Below are positions 1,689 to 57,600 of a stretch of 64,000 bases of DNA, piece by piece. A program made the position numbers and the translations under genes. Numbering within the stretch: position 1 is the first letter of the stretch; each line of letters starts with the position of its first letter. The stretch comes from Exobasidium rhododendri (lineage: Eukaryota > Basidiomycota > Exobasidiomycetes > Exobasidiales > Exobasidiaceae), in the NCBI GenBank assembly GCA_026210745.1, contig CP110631.1, forward strand, positions 2,046,001 to 2,110,000, written 5' to 3'. The notes beneath the pieces are model-generated. The model was given only the letters and a program-made list of their open reading frames with translations. It did not search any database and was not told the DNA's origin.

Positions 1689-4371
1689 TCACCATGGAAC
1701 GCGGCGTTGACGAATCTTGGTGACTTCCTGAGCACTAAGACGCCAGGCCACGTCATTGCCATTGGTGCTAGTGCTGCTACTAATCTTGTTGGTGCCTGGC
1801 TCTCCGAATGCACTGCCGAAGCCTCCAAGCGCCTGCTCCTCATCTGCATCATCTGCATCATCGTCCAAGTTGACAAGATAGGAGATGTGTGTCAATCTAG
1901 CAAAACGATCTCGTAGACCACCCAAGTTTGATTGCGACGAAAGGAAGTTGGTGAGGGACCTCACATCCTTGTCAAAGCACAAGGCGCCTAATTCGCTATA
2001 CTTTGCATTCATGACCCATTCTTCCCAGCCTGTCACGATTGTTTCGATACTCAATCGTAGCATGGTCTCCCAATTTTCCAAGATGAACAAATTTCTATAA
2101 TTACTCGTACCCAGAACATTCTCCCATCCCTTGATGAAGCGTCTCATGAAGAGCGAGATTGCGCCATTCTCTTGCTCCCGTTGCGAGAACTCTTCCTCGT
2201 TGACGAGGTAAGTGACGTCTCGCAGACTGTCCGTCAATAGCTGTCTTAATTTGGGTTTCAGAAGCGTTGTGTAGAGTAGTTCCAGATGCGTCCTTACAGC
2301 GTTGCGAATCCTCGGGATGAGAATGGAAAGGCCTTGCACGGTCGAGATGGCTAGAGACACTTCTTTTGGGAGAAAATGCTGAGAGAGGCTGGGCTCTACT
2401 GAAAGTTCAGAAATGATGCGCGTCATGTACTCTGCCGAAGTAGCCAAGACGTTGAGGTAGACGACAAAAGTGCTCCTCATCTCTCGACTGGCAGCATCTT
2501 TCCTTGGGCCCTCCACCGTCATGCTTGTGCTAGAATTTTTCCACACGCCGTCCATCTTCCTCACCAAAGCTTGCACGAAGTCTTCATCTATAATATACCG
2601 AACATTTCTAGACGTGCTCGAGAGGACTTCTAAGCTGGCTGTTGAGATTGCTCGTGCCATCACCATTCGCACCAGATAAAAGATATCATCCAAGAGTGAA
2701 GACATCAGAGGACGGGCAGAAAAGTCCACCGTATCCATTCGATGAGCTTTCTCAATGCTGCATCGCAGGAACCAGCTTTCGAGAGGAATGTAAACTTCTT
2801 GCATCATCTCGACGAATTTGCCGTCCAACTGGGAATGTAGGAGAAGATTGTCGGATGCTTCTCCTTGTATTTCGTTGGCTTCCACGTCTTGAGACGTCGT
2901 TTGAGGTGAAGTGATTGATTGTTGCTTACCCATCTTTGATATTCTTCTGAAATCTTTGACTTCAGTAGAGGCGCGTGCTGCGTTCCGTCCTTCTCCTGCG
3001 TCTGCAAGTGCCGATGATGGTGCAAGTCGGGTGGTAAGGAACAGACGGTACGTTCCCCATCTAGCAGCCATAGCAGCAACCTCGCCAATAATCCTGTCGA
3101 CTTCGCGAGTGTCTACCTCTACTTCTCCTTCTTGCCCATCCACTCCTCCCCCTCCTCCTCCCCCTCCCACAGAAGGGGTAGATGGTCTTCCTGGAATGCT
3201 AAAGCCGCCAGGACCTCGTAGAGTCGATTGCTTGCCAGATTTGCCGATAGAAGCGACGTAAGTGAAAGCGTACGACTTTGCTTCGTCGAGCTGAGGTAGA
3301 GCAATGGAGGATATCAGTGTGGGCGTTTATGCCCTAGGAGAAGAGTATGGGAAGGGCGTGTCTCACCTTTCTCTGTACATCCCGCACTTCAAACCAAGCG
3401 TCGCAGATTCGTTTGCCCAGTCTATCACACTCGTCTTGTAGACCAGGCATGACGCTTATTGCGAAATTACCAGCCCCATAGAATTTGTCGACCAAGGGTT
3501 GGTGTTGGTCGATTAGTTGAGCCAGGTGTTCAAAGAGTCTCGTAAGCAAGCTAGCATGAAGTAGCCCTGCTGAGCTCTGGCTACCTGACAGCCCTTCTGT
3601 AATTGCCCTGCCCCTCTCCCTGACCATTCCCTGTGCAAATATTCGATAGACGCTCAAACCTTCTTCCTTCCAACCGATAAGGGGAAACATCTTGAAGTAC
3701 TTTGTTGCGTCTACAGTATCTCGTGCGTCAGTTGCTGCCTCAAACTTTATGATGAATACCTGTAACAGCATTGTTCGCAAATGCTCAAGCTGAATGGGCG
3801 GCGGCTCGGGGTGATCTGAAGTGGGCACCATACTTGCCGCGAAGCGTGAATGCAGGACTTCCGCATCTATTGACATGGCTCTGATACAGTGTTGTGTTGC
3901 ACTTGTATAATCCTGCTGGTCAATACAAGCTGCTAATGACTGAAGCGACGCCTTCAGATCTGCTACCATCATCGCCCATTGCTGTGCCCTCTCCACCCTT
4001 TCACCTTCTTCATCTAATCTTCTAACGCTTTCACTAATCCTGTCCGCGGTGACTCCTGTCTCTTTGAGCCTTCTTTCGAGAACCTTTGCTTCATCTTCGA
4101 TTAGATGAATCTGTTGTCCCAGATTTTTCAGCAGATTTCTAGAAGTCTTGGTGTGTGCACGCGAATCGCTCAGGAGATCGTCGAGGTGAACGACTTGCTG
4201 AGAGGAGTAGGTGGATAATTGCGACAAGGCATGGCGAATGGCATGAGATGTGGTCAGGTCTTGAAGAACGTCAGCTTGCAAGTTTGTGGGCAAATTAAAC
4301 GGGTCGGAAGAAGGCGCAGCGTCACCTTCACGAGTCGAAACCTGTCGGCTCTGCTGCACCTTGACTGCCAT
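1689..4371 (-). CDS. COG4: conserved oligomeric Golgi complex subunit 4
   Basis: Exons 4371-3367 and 3290-1689, with a 76-nt intron (3366-3291, GTGAGA...CAG) joined in phase 0, give 868 aa, close to yeast Cog4. The N-terminal third is helical and coiled-coil (residues about 80-140), as expected for a CATCHR tethering subunit. The middle and C-terminal parts carry conserved segments such as VYIPLESWFLR, YLVNEEEF and the RF.RL.H.SYLVNLD end. Cog4 is in lobe A of the COG complex, which tethers retrograde vesicles at the Golgi and binds Sed5/Sly1. An oddity is a run of eight glycines just after the splice junction (about residue 376), flanked by acidic and proline-rich sequence, probably a disordered loop. 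The gene is head-to-head with the NOP13-like gene, with 254 bp between start codons. Confidence 0.9.
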
Positions 4372-4625
4372 TCTATGGACGACCCTTCTTTTTCGTGTTC
4401 ACAATCGGTGCCTCCAAAGTAGGGAAGTGAATACGCCGGTGTGACGTCTGATGGCCTCCCCTTGTCTTGCTTGTCTCGGCCGGTAGCGTCCCAAGCTACA
4501 ATTCAAAACTTCCCAAAAATTTCTGAAGAATTAGCCTTTTTTTGTACTCCTGCGCCCTCTGCATCGCTGCATCTTCATAAGACTCTTGTATCGCTACTGG
4601 CTCTGATCATCGTCCGATCCTCAAC

Positions 4626-6382
4626 ATGTCGGCGGAACACGTCGAAGAGGAGTCTACTAAAAAAGGTGAAGAAGGCCAAGAAACAAACAAGGAAAGAAGA
4701 CTAGCTCGAAAGGCAGAAAAGCAGGCGAAGCGGAAGGCATATACAGACCCGGAAGTAGGCAATGACGAGCAAGAGATCAAGGCGACGCAGAGCAATGGCG
4801 CTGACTATGAAGCTGAGCTGCAATCGAAAGAGGGAGAAGAAGAGGTCGAGGCCGTCTCGCACAAGGAAATGCGAAAGAGGAGGAAATTAGAGAAGCAGGC
4901 GACTCGATTAGGTCACGATGCCACTGGTTCTGTGGCAGGGCCTCCTGTGCACCCTTCGCGAGCATTGGCCGTTGCTTCTGCAAATGCAGTCAGCAGTGGT
5001 CCTATTCGAAGCAGTAGACATTCTGTCTGGGTAGGAAACATGTCGTTCAGAACTAATGCTGAGAGGCTGCAAGAATGGTTTGAAGAAAAGGGCGTGTATG
5101 GAATTAGCAGGGTCAACATGCCAAAGGGACCAAAGAAGACGGACAATAATCGGGGTTTTGCATATGTTGATGTACCAACGGCAGACGCTGTACAATCATG
5201 TATCGACTTGTCAGAGTCTCACTTGGATGGCAGGAAACTTTTGATAAAATCTGGCACGGACTACAGCGGCAGACCTGAAATTGACAAGACGGCGCTTGCT
5301 CTGGCTTCAGGACTCACAACAAGTGCACCACTCTCTTCCGCGAATGCCACAGAAGGTGTAGCGGCGCCGGAATCCACTGATGTGCCACAAAAGGGCAAGA
5401 CAGGCCTAACAAAGACTGCTCAGAAGATTCTGCGAGCTCAAAAGCATGTTCCAGGACCTACCCTTTTCGTCGGTAATCTTAGCTTCAATTCTACAGAGGA
5501 TGGAGTGAGAGAGTTGGTGGAAAGATCGGCAGCAGCAAGAGACGAATGGAGTAGTCAAAAGGACAAGAAGAAAGGGGGCGATAAGGTGAAGAAAAACAGA
5601 AGAGAGAAAGATGTTGATCAGGAGACTGCTAGTGACTCGGGCAGCAGCAGCAGTAGTAGCAGCAGTGAGGGAGAGAGCAGTGACGATGACGAGCAGGCCG
5701 ACGAAGATGACTCCAATGATGACGAAGGTAATACCAACGACGGTGTCGGGGAGAAAGACGTCAAGACGAGCAGGAAAGAGAAGAAGTCAAAGAAGAATGA
5801 AGGCTTGAGAGGTGCGGGTATTCGAAAGATACGAATGGGTCAATTTGAAGATACGGGGAAATGCAAGGGGTGAGTGCTCCCGTCGTTTGTGTTGAGCTGC
5901 GTCGCTGACCTTCTTCTGTAACTTGAAGATTTGCATTCATCGACTTTTTTTCGCCAGAATACGCAACAGCCAGTCTGATCGATCCTCGCAATTCCAGACT
6001 GGACGGCCGAGAGTTGACGTTACAATACGCTGGAGCAGATGCTATCAGAAGAGGTGCGCCAAAGGGACAGATCAGTCATGGACCTCGACCAAGACGAGAC
6101 AACCAGAGAGGACCCCCTAAGAGACCATTCAATGATGCATTTGAAACTCAAGAAGCGACAGTAGATTTAGGACCTGCACCAGAGCCAGGCACTTTTGATC
6201 CTGATGCACCTATGCCAAAGAAACACAAGGAGACGAAAGAAGAGAGGATCAAAAGAAGGGAAATTCAAAATGCCTCTTCAACAAAGAGAGCTAAACCTGG
6301 AGCAGCGCTGGCTAATGCACCTCGAGGCAAGATGGGTATCGAATTCAATGCTCCAAAGGGAGTCAAGAAGACGTTTGATTGA
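4626..6382 (+). CDS. NOP13: Nop13-like nucleolar RNA-binding protein, two RRMs
   Basis: Exons 4626-5869 and 5929-6382 (59-nt intron, GTGAGT...AAG) give 565 aa. The N-terminus is Lys/Glu-rich. RRM1 begins with SVWVGNMSF (about residue 138) and has RGFAYVDV as RNP1. RRM2 starts at TLFVGNLSF (about residue 280), but its loop holds a long Lys-rich then Ser/Asp/Glu insert (about residues 310-395). The domain resumes at GKCKGFAFIDF, which the intron cuts exactly inside RNP1. The tail is basic. The architecture and the interrupted second RRM resemble yeast Nop13, a nucleolar protein of pre-ribosomal particles; Nop12/RBM34 is the nearest alternative. The acidic-Ser insert is typical of nucleolar proteins and CK2 substrates. 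The stop is only 85 bp from the stop of the convergent small gene. Confidence 0.78.
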
Positions 6383-6467
6383 GACCTTCCCTTCCCTTTC
6401 CATTGGATACAGGATACAAGAAGCAGTGACTGATGTATTATACGAAATAGATCAACCATCCAGATCA

Positions 6468-7094
6468 TCAGTTCGTGAAAGCGTCCTTCACCTTTTCCAA
6501 TGCTCCCTTTGCTCCTCCAGAATGCTTGTTTGAAGAGGTATTCTCAGACGAATGAGATGTCTCGAAGCCCGTCTCTCCTTCTCCAGCATGAGCTTTGGAG
6601 AAACCGGTAGATTGGGTGCCCGAACCGGGAGCATCAAAAGCAGCACCTGCAGATGATGATAGATGACGACGACGACGACGACGACGACGACGATGATATC
6701 AGTGTCTCGTTCCTATGCCCTTTTCTTGGGGCTGATCAACTACTCACTGTGGTTCGCTGGACCTTTACTGCTGCTGTCAAAACCAGCTACATTGTCTCCT
6801 TCCGTTGCAGACATTTCTCCCCCACCCGATCCCTCGAAACCGGTGTAGCCCTGACCGGTCTTGCTGTTGGAGAAGCCCGTGGTACCGTCGCCTGCGCCAG
6901 TGGATTCGAAGTTGCGAGCTGAGACAAGCAACGGCGTAAGCTCTCCTGTTTTGTGCATGCCTCAAAGTAGCTTTTACTCTCCCTCTTCGCATCTCACCAT
7001 TACTGTCAGTGCCTGCGTCTTTATAAGAGAAGCCAGCAACGCCGGGATCTACTTCGCCTTCTCCAGCAGTCTGATTGTTCGTATTGTCGTCCAT
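6468..7094 (-). CDS. small Gly/Ser-rich protein with TGF-type repeats, unknown function
   Basis: I rebuilt this three-exon gene from frame and splice sites: 7094-6998, 6918-6748 and 6646-6468, giving 148 aa. The introns are 79 nt (6997-6919) and 101 nt (6747-6647), and both junctions join at codon position 1. The protein is acidic and rich in Gly, Ser, Thr and Asn. It repeats a short motif, x(T/A)GF(S/D/E), about six times (VAGFS, TTGFS, YTGFE, VAGFD, STGFS, ETGFE), and ends in a short amphipathic helix, KGALEKVKDAF. It has no signal peptide, membrane span or Cys. I do not recognise a family. It looks like a small intrinsically disordered, hydrophilin-type fungal protein. The second intron carries a (CGT)n microsatellite. 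The consistent phase of both introns and the regular repeats argue that it is a real gene. Confidence 0.6.
6654..6697. repeat. (ACG)n/(GAT)n trinucleotide microsatellite in an intron
   Basis: About 44 bp of GAC/GAT triplets lie wholly inside intron 2 of the small TGF-repeat gene, just upstream (in transcript sense) of its acceptor. On the plus strand the run reads as poly-Asp or poly-Thr in shadow frames, but it is intronic in the model above. Confidence 0.85.
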
Positions 7095-7489
7095 CGCAGC
7101 AGAGTGTAATTAAAGATAAAGGAGGATGAAGAAAGCCAACCGCACCAGCGATTCTTATTGCCTTGCGATCCAGTCGCTTCCGCCGATAGCTCAAAACAAT
7201 TACGTAGTTCAGTTGATCTACCATTCCCCGCATTTCGACAAAGGCCCCTCACCGAAGGCATACGCTCCTGGTAGGGGGGGGGGGGCGGGGGCAACATCGA
7301 AAAGTGGAGGGGTGCACCACGCACGTGACTATGCGCGTCGTAGAGCGGAACCGTGCTTGTGGTGTTGCAGATAGATACGTACGGAAAAACAAGCAGCCTC
7401 TACAATGTAAATAAATATTTGCCTCGAGTAACACAGTGTAGTCCGAGCGCATTGAAAAGGGTTACCAAGGTCAAGCACCAAGCAAGTGG
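7095..7489. promoter_or_regulatory. divergent promoter region between small TGF-repeat gene and FHA gene
   Basis: 395 bp separate the two start codons. It contains a run of twelve G (7274-7285), a pyrimidine/purine-rich stretch and a palindromic CACGTG E-box at 7322-7327. No gene is visible. Confidence 0.5.
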
Positions 7490-52283: not shown

Positions 52284-52401
52284 TGCAGCATCTCTTATCA
52301 ATGCCATGAGTTATTGTGTTGGAGTCCAAGTCCAGCCTTGACTTTGAAATGTACATGTACATCCTTCCATACCCTCCTCGCTTGATTTTGATTCCCATCT
52401 A

Positions 52402-52805
52402 CCATGCGCTACTACTATTAAATACACGTGGGTTTTTTGACCACTATCGAATACGCCGTGTACGACATGCTGTATCACCATGACTGGCCTCCCCATGTAA
52501 AATAGGATCTAATGAAATAAAATTGTATGAAGATTCTGAACCAACTTGTCTGAAGCAAAAAGTGTAAAACATGCCGTTTTGAGTGAGCTGCTCTAAGTGT
52601 GAAATTTTATTAGGCCCTAAAAAACCAGTCAAAAAGTCCCGGGAACGCGAACACCATACACGGTGTATCAATGGCAATAACGGTACTACCATAACGTTGT
52701 TCAATGAGCTCGAGACTTTGATACAATGTAGAAAAGTACAGTATTATATATATGAGATGTGAAAAAAAATGAGACAATACATATGAAAGAGAGGAGATAT
52801 AGAGG
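52402..52805 (+). repeat. left arm of about 404-bp inverted repeat
   Basis: Pairs with 54064-54469 in reverse complement. Long blocks agree with only scattered mismatches; for example the block following GACCACTAT at 52439 matches over about 45 bases with one difference. It marks the homologous end of two oppositely oriented copies. Confidence 0.85.
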
Positions 52806-53759
52806 TATCGAGCCACTACGCCAGAAGGGTCAATACTACAAAAAAAGTCATGGTCACGGTACAGGATTTACGCGAATCTAGCTCTACTGCCTCCGCGCAA
52901 GAGCTGCAAGCTCCAGTAAGTTGAGTGGATCATTAGTAGTATCATATCTAGCACTCTATTCATTTATAATGACCGTTTGTTCTCAATAAGGGTGTGTCGG
53001 CACACATTTCTCAACTTCACTTTAACTGACCCCCAAAAACAGACTCGACTTCAATTATCTCCTTCTTTTGTCACTATGATATATTTTAGGACTTAATAAA
53101 TGTTTTAGCTGTATATCATAGCAATGTATGCTAGTAATACTATCTGCCCTAAAAGAGCCTGTAGATCACGCAAATGAGCTTTGTAGATGGTAAAATGATC
53201 AAATTTGGGTCATTATGGCAGTTTCACGGTCCTAAAATGACCCAATTTTGCTATCTTATCTGATAGACGTCGTGTTGAGTTCATACTCTACAGTTATGTC
53301 CGGAATTAGTAGGAAAAGGGATTCAATGCTTAAAAACGACCAATTATTAATCATACTGACAAGTAAACGGCCTTTGTAGCTTTTCAAGGCCATTTTCAAT
53401 GGTGTACCCGATCAGCATGATTCTGGAATCAATACACAATAAAATAAGTTTTGAACTTAATAGAAGTTGTTCATTACTATCTTCTATATCGTTTCCTGCT
53501 TTTAAATTTGTACATTATTAATGAGAATATGCTACAAAGCAAGATACCGCTGACACCATGGTGCAAAATTTCTAAAAAATGATGGCGTAGTGCGTATTTC
53601 TCAGTGATAGCTTTTTGGACGCGCACAAAACCAACACACCATCTTCTCTTATAGGAAAACTTCATCAAATTCCATGAGAGCGTCTATTTTACATAGGGAG
53701 AGTGATCCGATAGGAGTGCATGGTCATGCCTGCAACGTCAGAGGGCGCAAATAGGGGCC

Positions 53760-53890
53760 AGGAGAGCGTCAATCGGGTGTTTTCACGTTCCCGAAATCAC
53801 GTGTATTTAATAGTAGTACCATGCGCTACCACTAGTAAATACACGTGATTTCGGGAACGTGAACGACGCCCGATTGACGCTCTCCCTGCC
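53760..53890. repeat. central near-palindrome at the A/B junction
   Basis: The two copies meet end to end here. Reading outward from 53817/53819 in both directions gives the same terminal repeat plus about 40-60 bp of subterminal sequence (ATTTCGGGAACGTGA, then CCCGATTGACGCTCTCC), so the segment can fold back on itself. Confidence 0.85.
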
Positions 53891-54469
53891 CCTTTTTGAG
53901 CCATTTCTGTACATAGATGAGTATTATAGCATGCATTCCATCCACACCCAAGAGATTGAGAGATGAGAAGCATTTTGTGAGGTACTTGTCCTATGATCGA
54001 AATTGTTCTGTCTGTGCCAGAATCGCGTGAAAAGTGACCACTATTGAATACACCGACGCCATCAACCCCTATATCTCTTCTCTTTCATATGTATCTTCTC
54101 ATTTTTTTTTACACCTCATATATATAATACTATACTTTTCTACATTGTATCAAAGTCTCGAGCTCATTGAGCGACGTTATGGTAGTACTGTCGTTGCCAT
54201 TGATACACCGTGTATGGTGTTCGCGTTCCCGGGACTTTTTGACTGGTTTTTTAGGGCCTAATCAAATTTCACACTTAGAGCAGCTCACTCAAAACGGCAT
54301 GTTTCACACTTTTTGTTTCAGACAAGTTTGTTCAAAATTTTCATACAATTCTATTCCATTAGGAGCTATTCTACATTGGACATGCGGTCATGGTGATACA
54401 GCATGTCGTACACGGCGTATTCAATAGTGGTCGAAAAACGCACGTGTATTTACTAGTGGTAGCGCATGG
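53819..54469 (-). mobile_element. TIR element B (651 bp), internally deleted relative nested in element A
   Basis: It has perfect 29-bp terminal inverted repeats (53819-53847 and 54441-54469) that differ from element A at two bases. TA lies on both sides (53817-53818 and 54470-54471). It sits in inverted orientation: its left 70-90 bp match the right end of A, and its right 400 bp match the left end of A (52402-52805). Much of the interior of A is absent, so B is a deletion derivative of the same family. No coding capacity was seen. Confidence 0.8.
54064..54469 (-). repeat. right arm of about 404-bp inverted repeat
   Basis: Reverse complement of 52402-52805; belongs to element B. The pairing stops at GATATAGGGG/GATATAGAGG, beyond which the two copies are unrelated. 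Confidence 0.85.
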
Positions 54470-54479
54470 TAGCGCATGG

Positions 54480-54676
54480 TATATCTCGTCTGCCTGCGTG
54501 GGGGAGAGCATAAGTTTTCTTTCGCGCGAGTGAGAAAGATGCTGGTCACGTGCCAGGAAGATTTTGATTTCCACTCTTTTTTTGGAGAGGTCGATTTCGA
54601 GCTTACAAGTTGGAGGTGGACAGAGAAAGGAGAACAGGAACGGCATACTCTCACACCAGCGAAGGACGCAAGCGTC
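54480..54676. promoter_or_regulatory. short MDN1 upstream region
   Basis: Only 197 bp separate the right end of element A from the MDN1 start chosen here. The region is open in the MDN1 reading frame back to an ATG at 54476, which lies in the terminal repeat of element A. Confidence 0.5.
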
Positions 54677-57600
54677 ATGGTGAACGACAAAAGCGCTATG
54701 AAGTCTATCTATAGTGTGGATCTAAGACTAGCTTCAACTTCGCTGTACGAGGAGTTGATGACTCTCGACACACTTGAGCCCAGTCGACAACTTTCAATCG
54801 TCGAGCAGTGGGCCAGCACATCAACACCAACAGCCACCCAGTCCGACCTAATCGACGCACTTAGTCACATCATACTACACCCTCTATGCACAGAGACCGT
54901 TGCTGTACGATTTCACCCCCTTCTACTTGAGATATTGACTCGATCAGCAGAAAGAGTCGAAGCAAGCGAGTCTGGTTGGTCAGAACCAATCATTAGACCT
55001 CTCTATCATACACTGGCAAGGTTACTTGCGCCATTTCCTGCAATACTGCCGTGAGTGCTCAGAAGGGAGTCTGCACTAGTAGTGATGCTTCAGACTCACA
55101 TTGGCTCTTTCTTGCTCCCTTCTTTGGCAGTATTGTGGCTCTATTTATATCCTCTTCGAAATTGCGACCATTACCTTTGATAGAAGAACAAGGAGAACTG
55201 GAGGCATTTCTCCTCTCAACATATCGTCTCATCCATTCTTCTCCCAATATTCTGCATGCATCTGGAGCTGATTGGTCCTCGAGTGTATTCCTTGGAGTGG
55301 CTCGATCATCCTCTGGATCATCTAATGGCGTAAAGCTCCTCGCACTACGCATCTTTGCAATCATGGAGCGTGTATCTGAAGCTGTCCATGAAGGATTGCA
55401 GCTACAGCTCGTCGGATTCCCCAGTCATCTGCGAGAAGGTGCTGAAGTGGGTGCCAATGCTCTGATGAGTATAATGAGCGGCACTTTGCTCGTGGAAGAG
55501 GTAGACGGTTGGGTCCTTCCTCTTCAAGAGGCCAAGAGGGTCCGCTTTGTACGGAGTGCCGCCAGTAGACACTGCACTGAAGTTGGAGAAAACGTGCTGG
55601 ATCCAACACAGCTTGCAAGCCAGACAGCTAGCGTCGGAGGTATCCTCTTTCACCGCCAATCGCCTCTTGTTCCGTTGCAAGATTCTTATAGAGAGACTGA
55701 ATCGTTACAAACTATTCTCTACAATCTTGGGCAAAAACTCGCTGCCAACCTTCCTATCCTACTCTCTGGACCGGAAGCATGCGGAAAAACATCGCTGATT
55801 CGACACGTATGCCTTGTTTTGCAACCAAATGCACTCATCAATCCCATCATGACGCTTCAGCTAGGCGACCAATCCGGTATCGATGCCAAATCTCTGATAG
55901 GCTCGTTTATCTCTTCTACGAAAACACCTGGAACCTTTGAATGGGTGGAAGGTGCCTTGACAAGGGCTGTTCGACTGGGGAAATGGGTAGTGTTGGAAGA
56001 CATTGATCGAGCTAGTGGGGAGGTCTTATCAGTCATCAAGCCTCTCGTGGAAGACATGTGTCGAAGCAAGCAAGTCGGAGCGAGACCGTCCTTGGATCTT
56101 GGTTCTCGTGGTCGAGTGGAAGCTGGCAGCACCTTTGCACTCTTTTCAACGAGGACAACGCCGTTGCAAAAGGAAGGCGGCAGCACACCTCGGCCCACCT
56201 ACTTTGGACATGAGCATTGGCAAGAGGTAGAGATGAAAGCCCTGCGGCAAGACGACATTTTGGCAATCGTAAAAAGCAACAACGAACTTCTGTCCTTGGC
56301 ACAAGATGGCACTTGTGAGAGATTAATCTCCACCTGGCTCAAATTCACCAGCGCCGCTTCCAATCGAAGTCTATCGTCGTTGACAAGGGACCGCCAATCA
56401 GCAGCTGGCACAGTACGAGTGCCCTCTTTTCACGATTTGCTGAAGTGGTGTCGCCGGATAGAGGCCTGTCTGAAGAAGAGCGGCTCAGCGGCGGCCACCA
56501 TCTCTCGTGCTCCCCTCTCGAATCAAGCGTTACAAGAGGAGATTGCAATCGACGCTTGCGACATCTTCTTAGGGTCAACACCACCATCGTGAGTAGCACT
56601 GTGTAGCTGCTGATCTGATGGCATGTCAGACTGAAATGTCTCTCTCCTGTCAACCTCTTTTGCAGATACTTTTCTGCTTCACCTGACCAAGGGTTGAACG
56701 GTAAGGGTATGCTTCATGGAGCAAACGATCGGTACAGCACCTTGATTGAGCTTCTCGCCAATGAATTAGGGGTTGATCGAATGGCTATTTGGCACAACGT
56801 AGCGGAACGACGACCAGAGTTCAAACTTGAAACATCAGATGGCCAAGGTGGAAAGAAGGTCATCATTGGTCGCAGTCAAATACAAAGGTCGAGCGTGGGC
56901 GCTGCTGCTGTTCAGCCGATCTCGCGTAATTTCGCCTTGACTGGTCCTGCTGCTCGCTTGATGGAGAGGATTGCCGTGTGTGTTTCGTTGGGTGAGCCGA
57001 CGTTGCTTGTTGGAGAAACGGGAACGGGAAAAACGACAGTCGTGCAGCACCTTGCTTCCCTCGTGCGTAAGCCTCTCGTTGCATTGAATTTGAGTCAACA
57101 AACAGAGACATCCGACTTGTTGGGCGGCTTCAAGCCACTTGATCCAAAGTTGCCTGCGATGGAGCTACACAACCAATGGGTCAACCTCTTCCAACAGACT
57201 TTCTCATCCCGAAGAAACGGTGCATTCCTCAAAGCAGAACGGAAAGCACTGCAGGCCGAAAATTGGAAGCGACTGTACGGGACCTGGAGGGAAGCCGTTC
57301 GTCTGGCATTGGATAAGCTGACACGCATCGAGAAGCACACGTCAGCATCAGAACGAGCCGAAGAGGAAGAACGGGCAACGAAAATTCGTCGATTGACCAA
57401 CGGAGGAGGCAAGCAAGATCAGGCCTCTTCCTACTCTCCGCAAGAGAACGATGCCCTGTCGAAACGGTGGATGGAATTCCAAGATCAAATCGAGACTTTC
57501 GCAATGCAGTACACTACCAAGAAAAGACATCTGGTCTTTTCTTTCGTGGAGGGTCCGCTAGTCAAGGCGATACGATCTGGATCGTGGGTGCTGCTCGACG

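Follow-up and report, generated by a model that had tools for sequence, protein, structure and literature searches.

At one site in a 64,000-nucleotide stretch of DNA from the plant-associated fungus Exobasidium rhododendri (the window, C2:2046001-2110000 of a 17.6-Mb genome in four contigs), two related sequences with inverted ends lie one inside the other. What are these sequences, how did they come to be nested, and what could have moved them? The strain, CBS101457, is named among the sequenced Exobasidium species in the available text of PMC13010171.

Two related elements are nested at a TA

The outer sequence, element A (52402-54479), measures 1,425 bp once the inner element B and one TA are removed, and its 29-bp terminal inverted repeats (TIRs) are then identical. 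Element B (53819-54469, 651 bp) has two 29-bp TIRs of its own, identical and inverted, with a TA on each side, and it splits the right TIR of A at an internal TA into 53798-53818 and 54472-54479. The features of the site are as follows.

52399..52806, + strand: left arm of an inverted repeat created by the nesting, 408 bp (partner 54065-54472, 91% complementary)
52400..52401, no strand: TA, left flank of A (target-site copy), read directly and computed
52402..54479, + strand: element A, non-autonomous, interrupted by B, 1,425 bp without the insert
52402..52430, + strand: left 29-bp TIR of A, CCATGCGCTACTACTATTAAATACACGTG
52442..52457, + strand: subterminal repeat of the inner TIR motif, CACTATCGAATACGCC, at element position 41; candidate second transposase site
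53744..53902, + strand: near-perfect palindrome at the inverted junction of the A right end and a B end
53798..53818, - strand: inner 21 bp of the right TIR of A, ending in the target TA (53817-53818)
53819..54469, - strand: element B, an internal-deletion relative of 651 bp, inserted in the opposite orientation to A
53819..53847, + strand: 29-bp TIR of B, one end
54065..54472, - strand: right arm of the inverted repeat, 408 bp (partner 52399-52806)
54441..54469, - strand: 29-bp TIR of B, other end, inverted and identical
54470..54471, no strand: second copy of the target TA, right of B
54472..54479, - strand: outer 8 bp of the right TIR of A, GCGCATGG on the + strand, severed by B
54480..54481, no strand: TA, right flank of A

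Direct reading and computation agreed to the base with the original prediction that A has perfect 29-bp TIRs only without B and one TA, that B has perfect repeats of its own with a TA on both sides, and that the target TA (copies at 53817-53818 and 54470-54471) sits within the right TIR of A. B was likewise found in the opposite orientation to A, the two are relatives, as had been proposed (their 29-bp ends are 93% identical), and neither carries a transposase. The 29-bp end pattern, allowing up to three mismatches, occurs three times in the window and never in 100 dinucleotide shuffles; genome-wide, the A-type end pattern occurs 32 times, compared to zero occurrences of a reversed control pattern.

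The duplication of TA on insertion of B, also part of the original prediction, could be read from an uninterrupted relative: L009, which is 97.8% identical to A, has an unbroken right end and therefore serves as a paralogous empty site. At the nested sites, the uninterrupted end has one TA and the split end has two, and because the opposite end of A keeps the pre-insertion sequence, the TA step is directly visible at the nested site itself. An element that brought one TA with it would formally leave the same sequence, and duplication, favoured by the symmetry, is much the better reading.

The neighbours of A are a short-chain dehydrogenase-like gene on one side and a midasin-like gene on the other, both of which we recognised by eye from their open reading frames, and we take the very large AAA-ATPase gene on the right to be midasin. 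About 200 bp separate A from the probable start of this putative midasin gene (interval 54480-55054 of the window), and A may therefore affect its promoter.

A and B belong to a family with TA flanks

DNA searches of the genome with A and B found full-length and partial relatives, the counts being lower bounds. Among these we delimited 27 elements, and every one of them has TA on both sides (27/27), so that the repeat ends and TA flanks on which the original prediction had staked its boundaries recur throughout. The two 29-bp TIRs of an element are identical in 18 cases, differ by one mismatch in seven and by two in two. L033 (C1:1633738-1634274) is not among the 27: this decayed relative retains a single recognisable end, which is G-like, and so offers no pair of ends to delimit it. 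A looser end pattern occurs at 54 places in the genome, 52 of which are ends of delimited elements; of the remaining pair, both with two mismatches, one (C1:1633738) adjoins L033 and the other (C1:5468789) we take as a chance match.

The family falls into three tip types: 17 elements of A type (CCATGCGCTAC), eight of S type (CCATGCCGGATC, including L27, described below) and two of G type (CCATGCGCGACGGC; L31 and L28). The A-type members are A, B, a copy of B, both members of a second nest (L020) and 12 others. These should have 34 ends, of which 32 are intact, and each of the missing two is split by a nested copy, which reveals a second insertion into a TIR, at C1:4777369. In this L020 nest (C1:4777369-4778793), an A-type element with TA on both sides lies in the left TIR of another A-type element, at a TA at positions 12-13.

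Several copies are nearly identical to one another. B differs from the copy at C1:1443462-1444112 at two of 651 positions, the identity of the L16/L17 pair rounds to 100.0% and that of the L29/L30 pair to 99.7%; movement of the family appears to have been recent. Two A-type elements lie 3 kb apart (C3:3494199-3495624 and C3:3498628-3500051), possibly through local hopping. The first 405 bp and last 246 bp of B match the two ends of the 1.4-kb copies, with at most one shared base readable at the joint, and by its sequence B is a simple internal deletion.

These copies bear on two other accounts of the site. Positions 52399-54472 could be a single foldback-like element with long inverted repeats and a 10-bp tandem duplication at its right tip, without any nesting: the outer arms of 408 bp, formed by the left part of A and the right part of B, are 91% complementary and reach the outer ends, and the 20 bp before the flank are two copies of TAGCGCATGG. 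However, B occurs alone elsewhere, as a 651-bp element with its own TA flanks and two differences; A without B matches the 1.4-kb copies end to end; and the ends of A are identical to each other over 29 bp and only 93% identical to those of B. As both parts exist free-standing, we ruled out the single foldback element, which is exceedingly improbable. The nest could also be an assembly artefact that joins two unrelated places, since both elements have copies elsewhere and the nest was read from the assembled sequence. Against this, the junction falls exactly on a TA and completes the 29-bp repeat exactly, and a second nest of the same design is found at C1:4776869-4780706, which makes an artefact hardly credible. 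Insertion of B into A is the reading that we retain.

Two insertions fall within family ends

Two of the 27 insertion sites lie inside TIRs of the family itself, one at TIR positions 9-10 and one at 12-13, and in each nest the newcomer points the same way with respect to the tip of the element that it entered; none of the 27 lies in a family interior. TIRs hold 210 of the 3,093 TAs of the family. With a genome total of about 573,000 TAs, extrapolated from the window, 0.0099 TIR hits would be expected, and the probability of at least one more given the first is 0.0095 (post hoc). At the 25 other sites, no significant base preference beyond TA was seen across ten flanking positions (lowest P 0.358), and a target-site base preference was set aside on these grounds; the flanks of the 25 sites appear somewhat richer in AT, with a GC content of 0.456 compared to 0.509 at window TA sites.

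One explanation is that transposase bound to a resident TIR draws in the incoming element, so that the family favours its own ends as targets. The share of two in 27 with the same relative orientation, the small expectation and second-hit probability, and the lack of a significant flanking-base preference at the other sites all point in this direction. However, there are only two events, the first of which was the reason for looking; the TA total is an extrapolation; AT-richer flanks would slightly raise the expectation for the AT-rich TIRs; and insertions elsewhere may have been lost by selection. TIR targeting is therefore suggestive only, and a preference for own ends as its cause is possible but rather doubtful.

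A relative encodes a candidate transposase

The original prediction held that A and B were activated by another copy, which should share their ends and TA flanks and encode a DDE transposase. The best candidate in the genome is L27 (C1:5452024-5454933), a 2,910-bp S-type element with TA flanks. Its minus strand contains four main open-frame blocks, three of which match Psq, Tc5 and DDE_1 domains, while the C-terminal block matches nothing. Joined in a model of five exons and four GT-AG introns, they give a protein of 582 aa with no internal stop that matches DDE_1 (PF03184; 50.9 bits, cut-off 22), HTH_Tnp_Tc5 (27.3 bits, cut-off 22.2) and HTH_psq (23.6 bits, cut-off 20.4); single exons scored 21.6 and 21.4 against DDE_1, slightly below the cut-off of 22. 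The second and third catalytic D of the model are separated by 35 residues in a manual count (DD35D). Three acceptors of intron 2 keep the frame open, so the acceptor used is uncertain. The deposited protein at this locus, CBS101457_002273, is shorter (364 aa) and lacks the N-terminal region with the DNA-binding domains, which this locus seems to encode, and the splice sites of the 582-aa model are therefore predictions. The domains and the DD35D spacing bear out the placement in IS630-Tc1-mariner that had been drawn from the TA and narrow it to the pogo/Fot part.

Searching the genome with the L27 protein gave a single 100% match, L27 itself, and one other, L28, which is 61% identical to the N-terminal part and has one stop inside, a mark of either an intron or damage. 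When the genome was searched with the DDE_1 family, six copies of another family were listed and L27 and L28 were not, so this search may also have overlooked other relatives whose genes are split by introns. In a protein database, six proteins among 7,991 scored candidates matched L27 at E <= 0.001, and the best from outside the E. rhododendri genome was 27% identical over 64% of the model.

The six copies of the other DDE_1 family (L037-L042, at C1:147470, C2:3659714, C2:4581194, C2:4893171, C3:2761381 and C1:5260520) are 1.9 kb long, lie between TAs and have the ends CAGTAGAACCTCC. Compared with L037, the other five show 99.9-100% identity, each DDE_1 match lies in a 521-codon open frame, and by these sequences the family was probably active recently. 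It was rejected as the mobiliser of A, as its ends are unlike those of A by eye.

At the DNA level, L27 and A align at A positions 13-430 (83%) and 1174-1413 (89%). TIR positions 13-29 are identical in A and L27, B differs from them at position 17, and the differences between A and L27 lie in positions 7-12, giving the outer tip CCATGCCGGATC in L27 compared to CCATGCGCTAC in A and B. The search that had been proposed for an autonomous partner thus yielded a DDE transposase in a TA-flanked relative, with an outer tip that differs from that of A; activation by another copy gains a transposase-bearing relative, and given its outer tip L27 is a putative mover of A and B.

A and B could instead have been moved by an autonomous element with the CCATGCGCTAC tip that is now absent. 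In this assembly, the elements with intact A tips are all 1,426 bp or shorter; the true partner could thus have been lost, or this strain may not carry it. A transposase-bearing element exists for each of the other two tip types (L27 and L28), and there is none for the A tip, despite its having most of the copies (17/27) and near-identical pairs. On the other hand, A and L27 share TIR positions 13-29 in full (B departs from them at 17), and their differences are confined to positions 7-12. We consider an absent partner a serious contender with somewhat less than an even chance.

Proposed mechanism

Very probably, A and B are non-autonomous elements of the pogo/Fot branch of IS630-Tc1-mariner that were moved in trans, with L27 as the best candidate source of transposase, and B entered A later. 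A transposase made elsewhere in the genome would recognise the 29-bp ends of A and B, the recognised part being probably the inner TIR, CTANTAAATACACGTG, together with the subterminal repeat of the same motif. It would then excise the elements and join them at a TA, which would be duplicated. The best candidate for its source is the L27 gene with its HTH_psq, HTH_Tnp_Tc5 and DDE_1 domains, whose protein would presumably be made and act on the ends of A and B. A would first have inserted between two host genes, and B, internally deleted but with both ends, would later have entered the TA at positions 9-10 of the right TIR of A. From that point B could presumably still move, and A alone could not.

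A further copy of the inner TIR motif lies at element position 41 (five mismatches in A, four in B, three in S_L22 and L27), and another lies within the right end, where that of B (416) and that of L27 (2674) have three mismatches each and that of A has five. B has lost its interior and retains all four motifs; in L28, only the position-41 copy was found, with five mismatches. These recurring motifs are candidate transposase sites. Sleeping Beauty-like elements have two-site ends, which the motif layout at the ends of A, B and L27 resembles.

Segments are exchanged around a shared core

The ends of the non-autonomous copies do not all share the history of their interiors. The ends of G_L31 match L28 (left 430 bp, 94.4%; right 250 bp, 88.0%) and are distant from A (320/440 and 154/248 identical), compared to 506/560 identities to A and 513/560 to L21 over core positions 441-1000. 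Positions 1001-1170 are also distant from A (109/169), so the well-shared core is limited to positions 441-1000. In S_L25, positions 180-320 side with G_L31 (40 of 48 informative sites), and the rest of the element sides with S_L22 (286 of 292). Among the copies compared, the left 430 bp are L27-like (80.9-90.0%) in A-type copies except L21 and in seven non-autonomous S copies, and the right 250 bp are 87.6-89.2% identical to L27 in A-type copies and 62.7-70.4% in L21 and S copies, the low values arising from about 155 bp in a second form that is also present in B. Judged by these mosaic patterns, copies have exchanged segments with one another, and parts of the ends were among them; slower divergence of a conserved core could explain G_L31 but not S_L25.

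The core itself, about 740 bp in A (window 52831-53575, A positions 430-1174), has essentially no match to L27 or L28. No transposase remnant was found in it by blastn or tblastx against these two elements, and the idea of such a remnant was dropped on that basis; the sole exceptions were matches of the ends that ran a few bases into the core and one weak tblastx alignment with L28, which extends inwards from the right end (39% over 31 codons, A 1130-1222). In a genome search with A, which skips common words, the core was unmatched outside family copies.

The inverted nest could form a hairpin

Folded as RNA, the 159-nt palindrome at 53744-53902 has a free energy of -117.4 kcal/mol (z -18.39). 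At 53759-53902, Rfam gave mir-581 (E 1.7e-5), mir-137 and STnc400; these matches were rejected as hairpin fits, since they are far below gathering scores and lie on the nesting palindrome. The genome has four Piwi matches at three places, three RdRP matches and four RNase III matches, two of the last close together in a 1,465-codon frame, which makes RNA silencing plausible; the nest hairpin, if transcribed, might feed it. A decayed-looking Argonaute duplicate was seen at L043:1410-4070 and 4228-7121 (C3:1409909-1415620), with a frame 96% identical over 360 aa to that at C3:2934354. That L28 broke an Argonaute gene was ruled out, since the Argonaute-like matches stop about 160 bp before L28, which thus lies beside them.

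A broader and more speculative view, which we think improbable, is that one non-autonomous core persists by changing its ends through conversion or interrupted repair. It would carry L28-like ends in one copy and L27-like ends in others, with three tip types of which that of A has no surviving partner; landing in resident family ends would be favoured and would be one route of exchange, and the inverted nest hairpin could feed RNA silencing against the family.

Significance and comparison with known systems

This is a new pogo-type family of a known kind and with an ordinary mechanism, whose insertion record is unusually clear; it stands out for nested insertion into ends and for its exchanged segments. 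In open-licence PMC literature (titles and abstract starts), nothing on these elements appeared among the matches listed. With its near-identical copies, a single candidate transposase gene and 27 delimited members in a 17.6-Mb genome, it offers a compact test system for asking if pogo-type transposases insert preferentially into their own ends, to what extent a changed outer tip restricts cross-mobilisation, and how non-autonomous elements track diverging autonomous ones via end swaps.

The TA duplication (27/27) and terminal inverted repeats are those of IS630-Tc1-mariner elements. Within the pogo superfamily, the family resembles Fot and Fot-like elements in its TA duplication, short TIRs and fungal host, and in the HTH_psq, HTH_Tnp_Tc5 and DDE_1 domains and DD35D spacing of the L27 model: according to the available text of PMC7386202, nearly all Fot and Fot-like transposases are DD35D, their DNA-binding domains are HTH_psq and/or HTH_Tnp_Tc5, and a duplicated TA is found in FotC, in FotD and among some of the Fot-like elements. 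Most Fot elements described there have a TAA duplication and TIRs of 40-60 bp. In contrast, the base after the right-hand TA is A in only 2 of 27 elements, and the 29-bp ends fit type 1, defined in that text by ends of 40 bp or less. Like MITEs or internally deleted Tc1-mariner elements, A and B keep their ends and subterminal parts without a transposase, but A, at 1.4 kb, exceeds the general MITE limit of 600 bp given in the accessible part of PMC4877112, and has a core of about 740 bp that is unmatched in L27 and L28 and is found with different ends.

As in Mu killer of maize, to go by the excerpted text of PMC3440606, inverted transposon sequence could give hairpin RNA; unlike Mu killer, the arms formed by A and B hold no transposase sequence. 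Finally, as with the P-element construct and the maize self-insertions in the portion of PMC4744444 at hand, a copy has entered a resident copy of its own family. In the worked P{lacW} example given there, the insertion concerns a marker gene, whereas both E. rhododendri cases lie in the terminal repeat itself.
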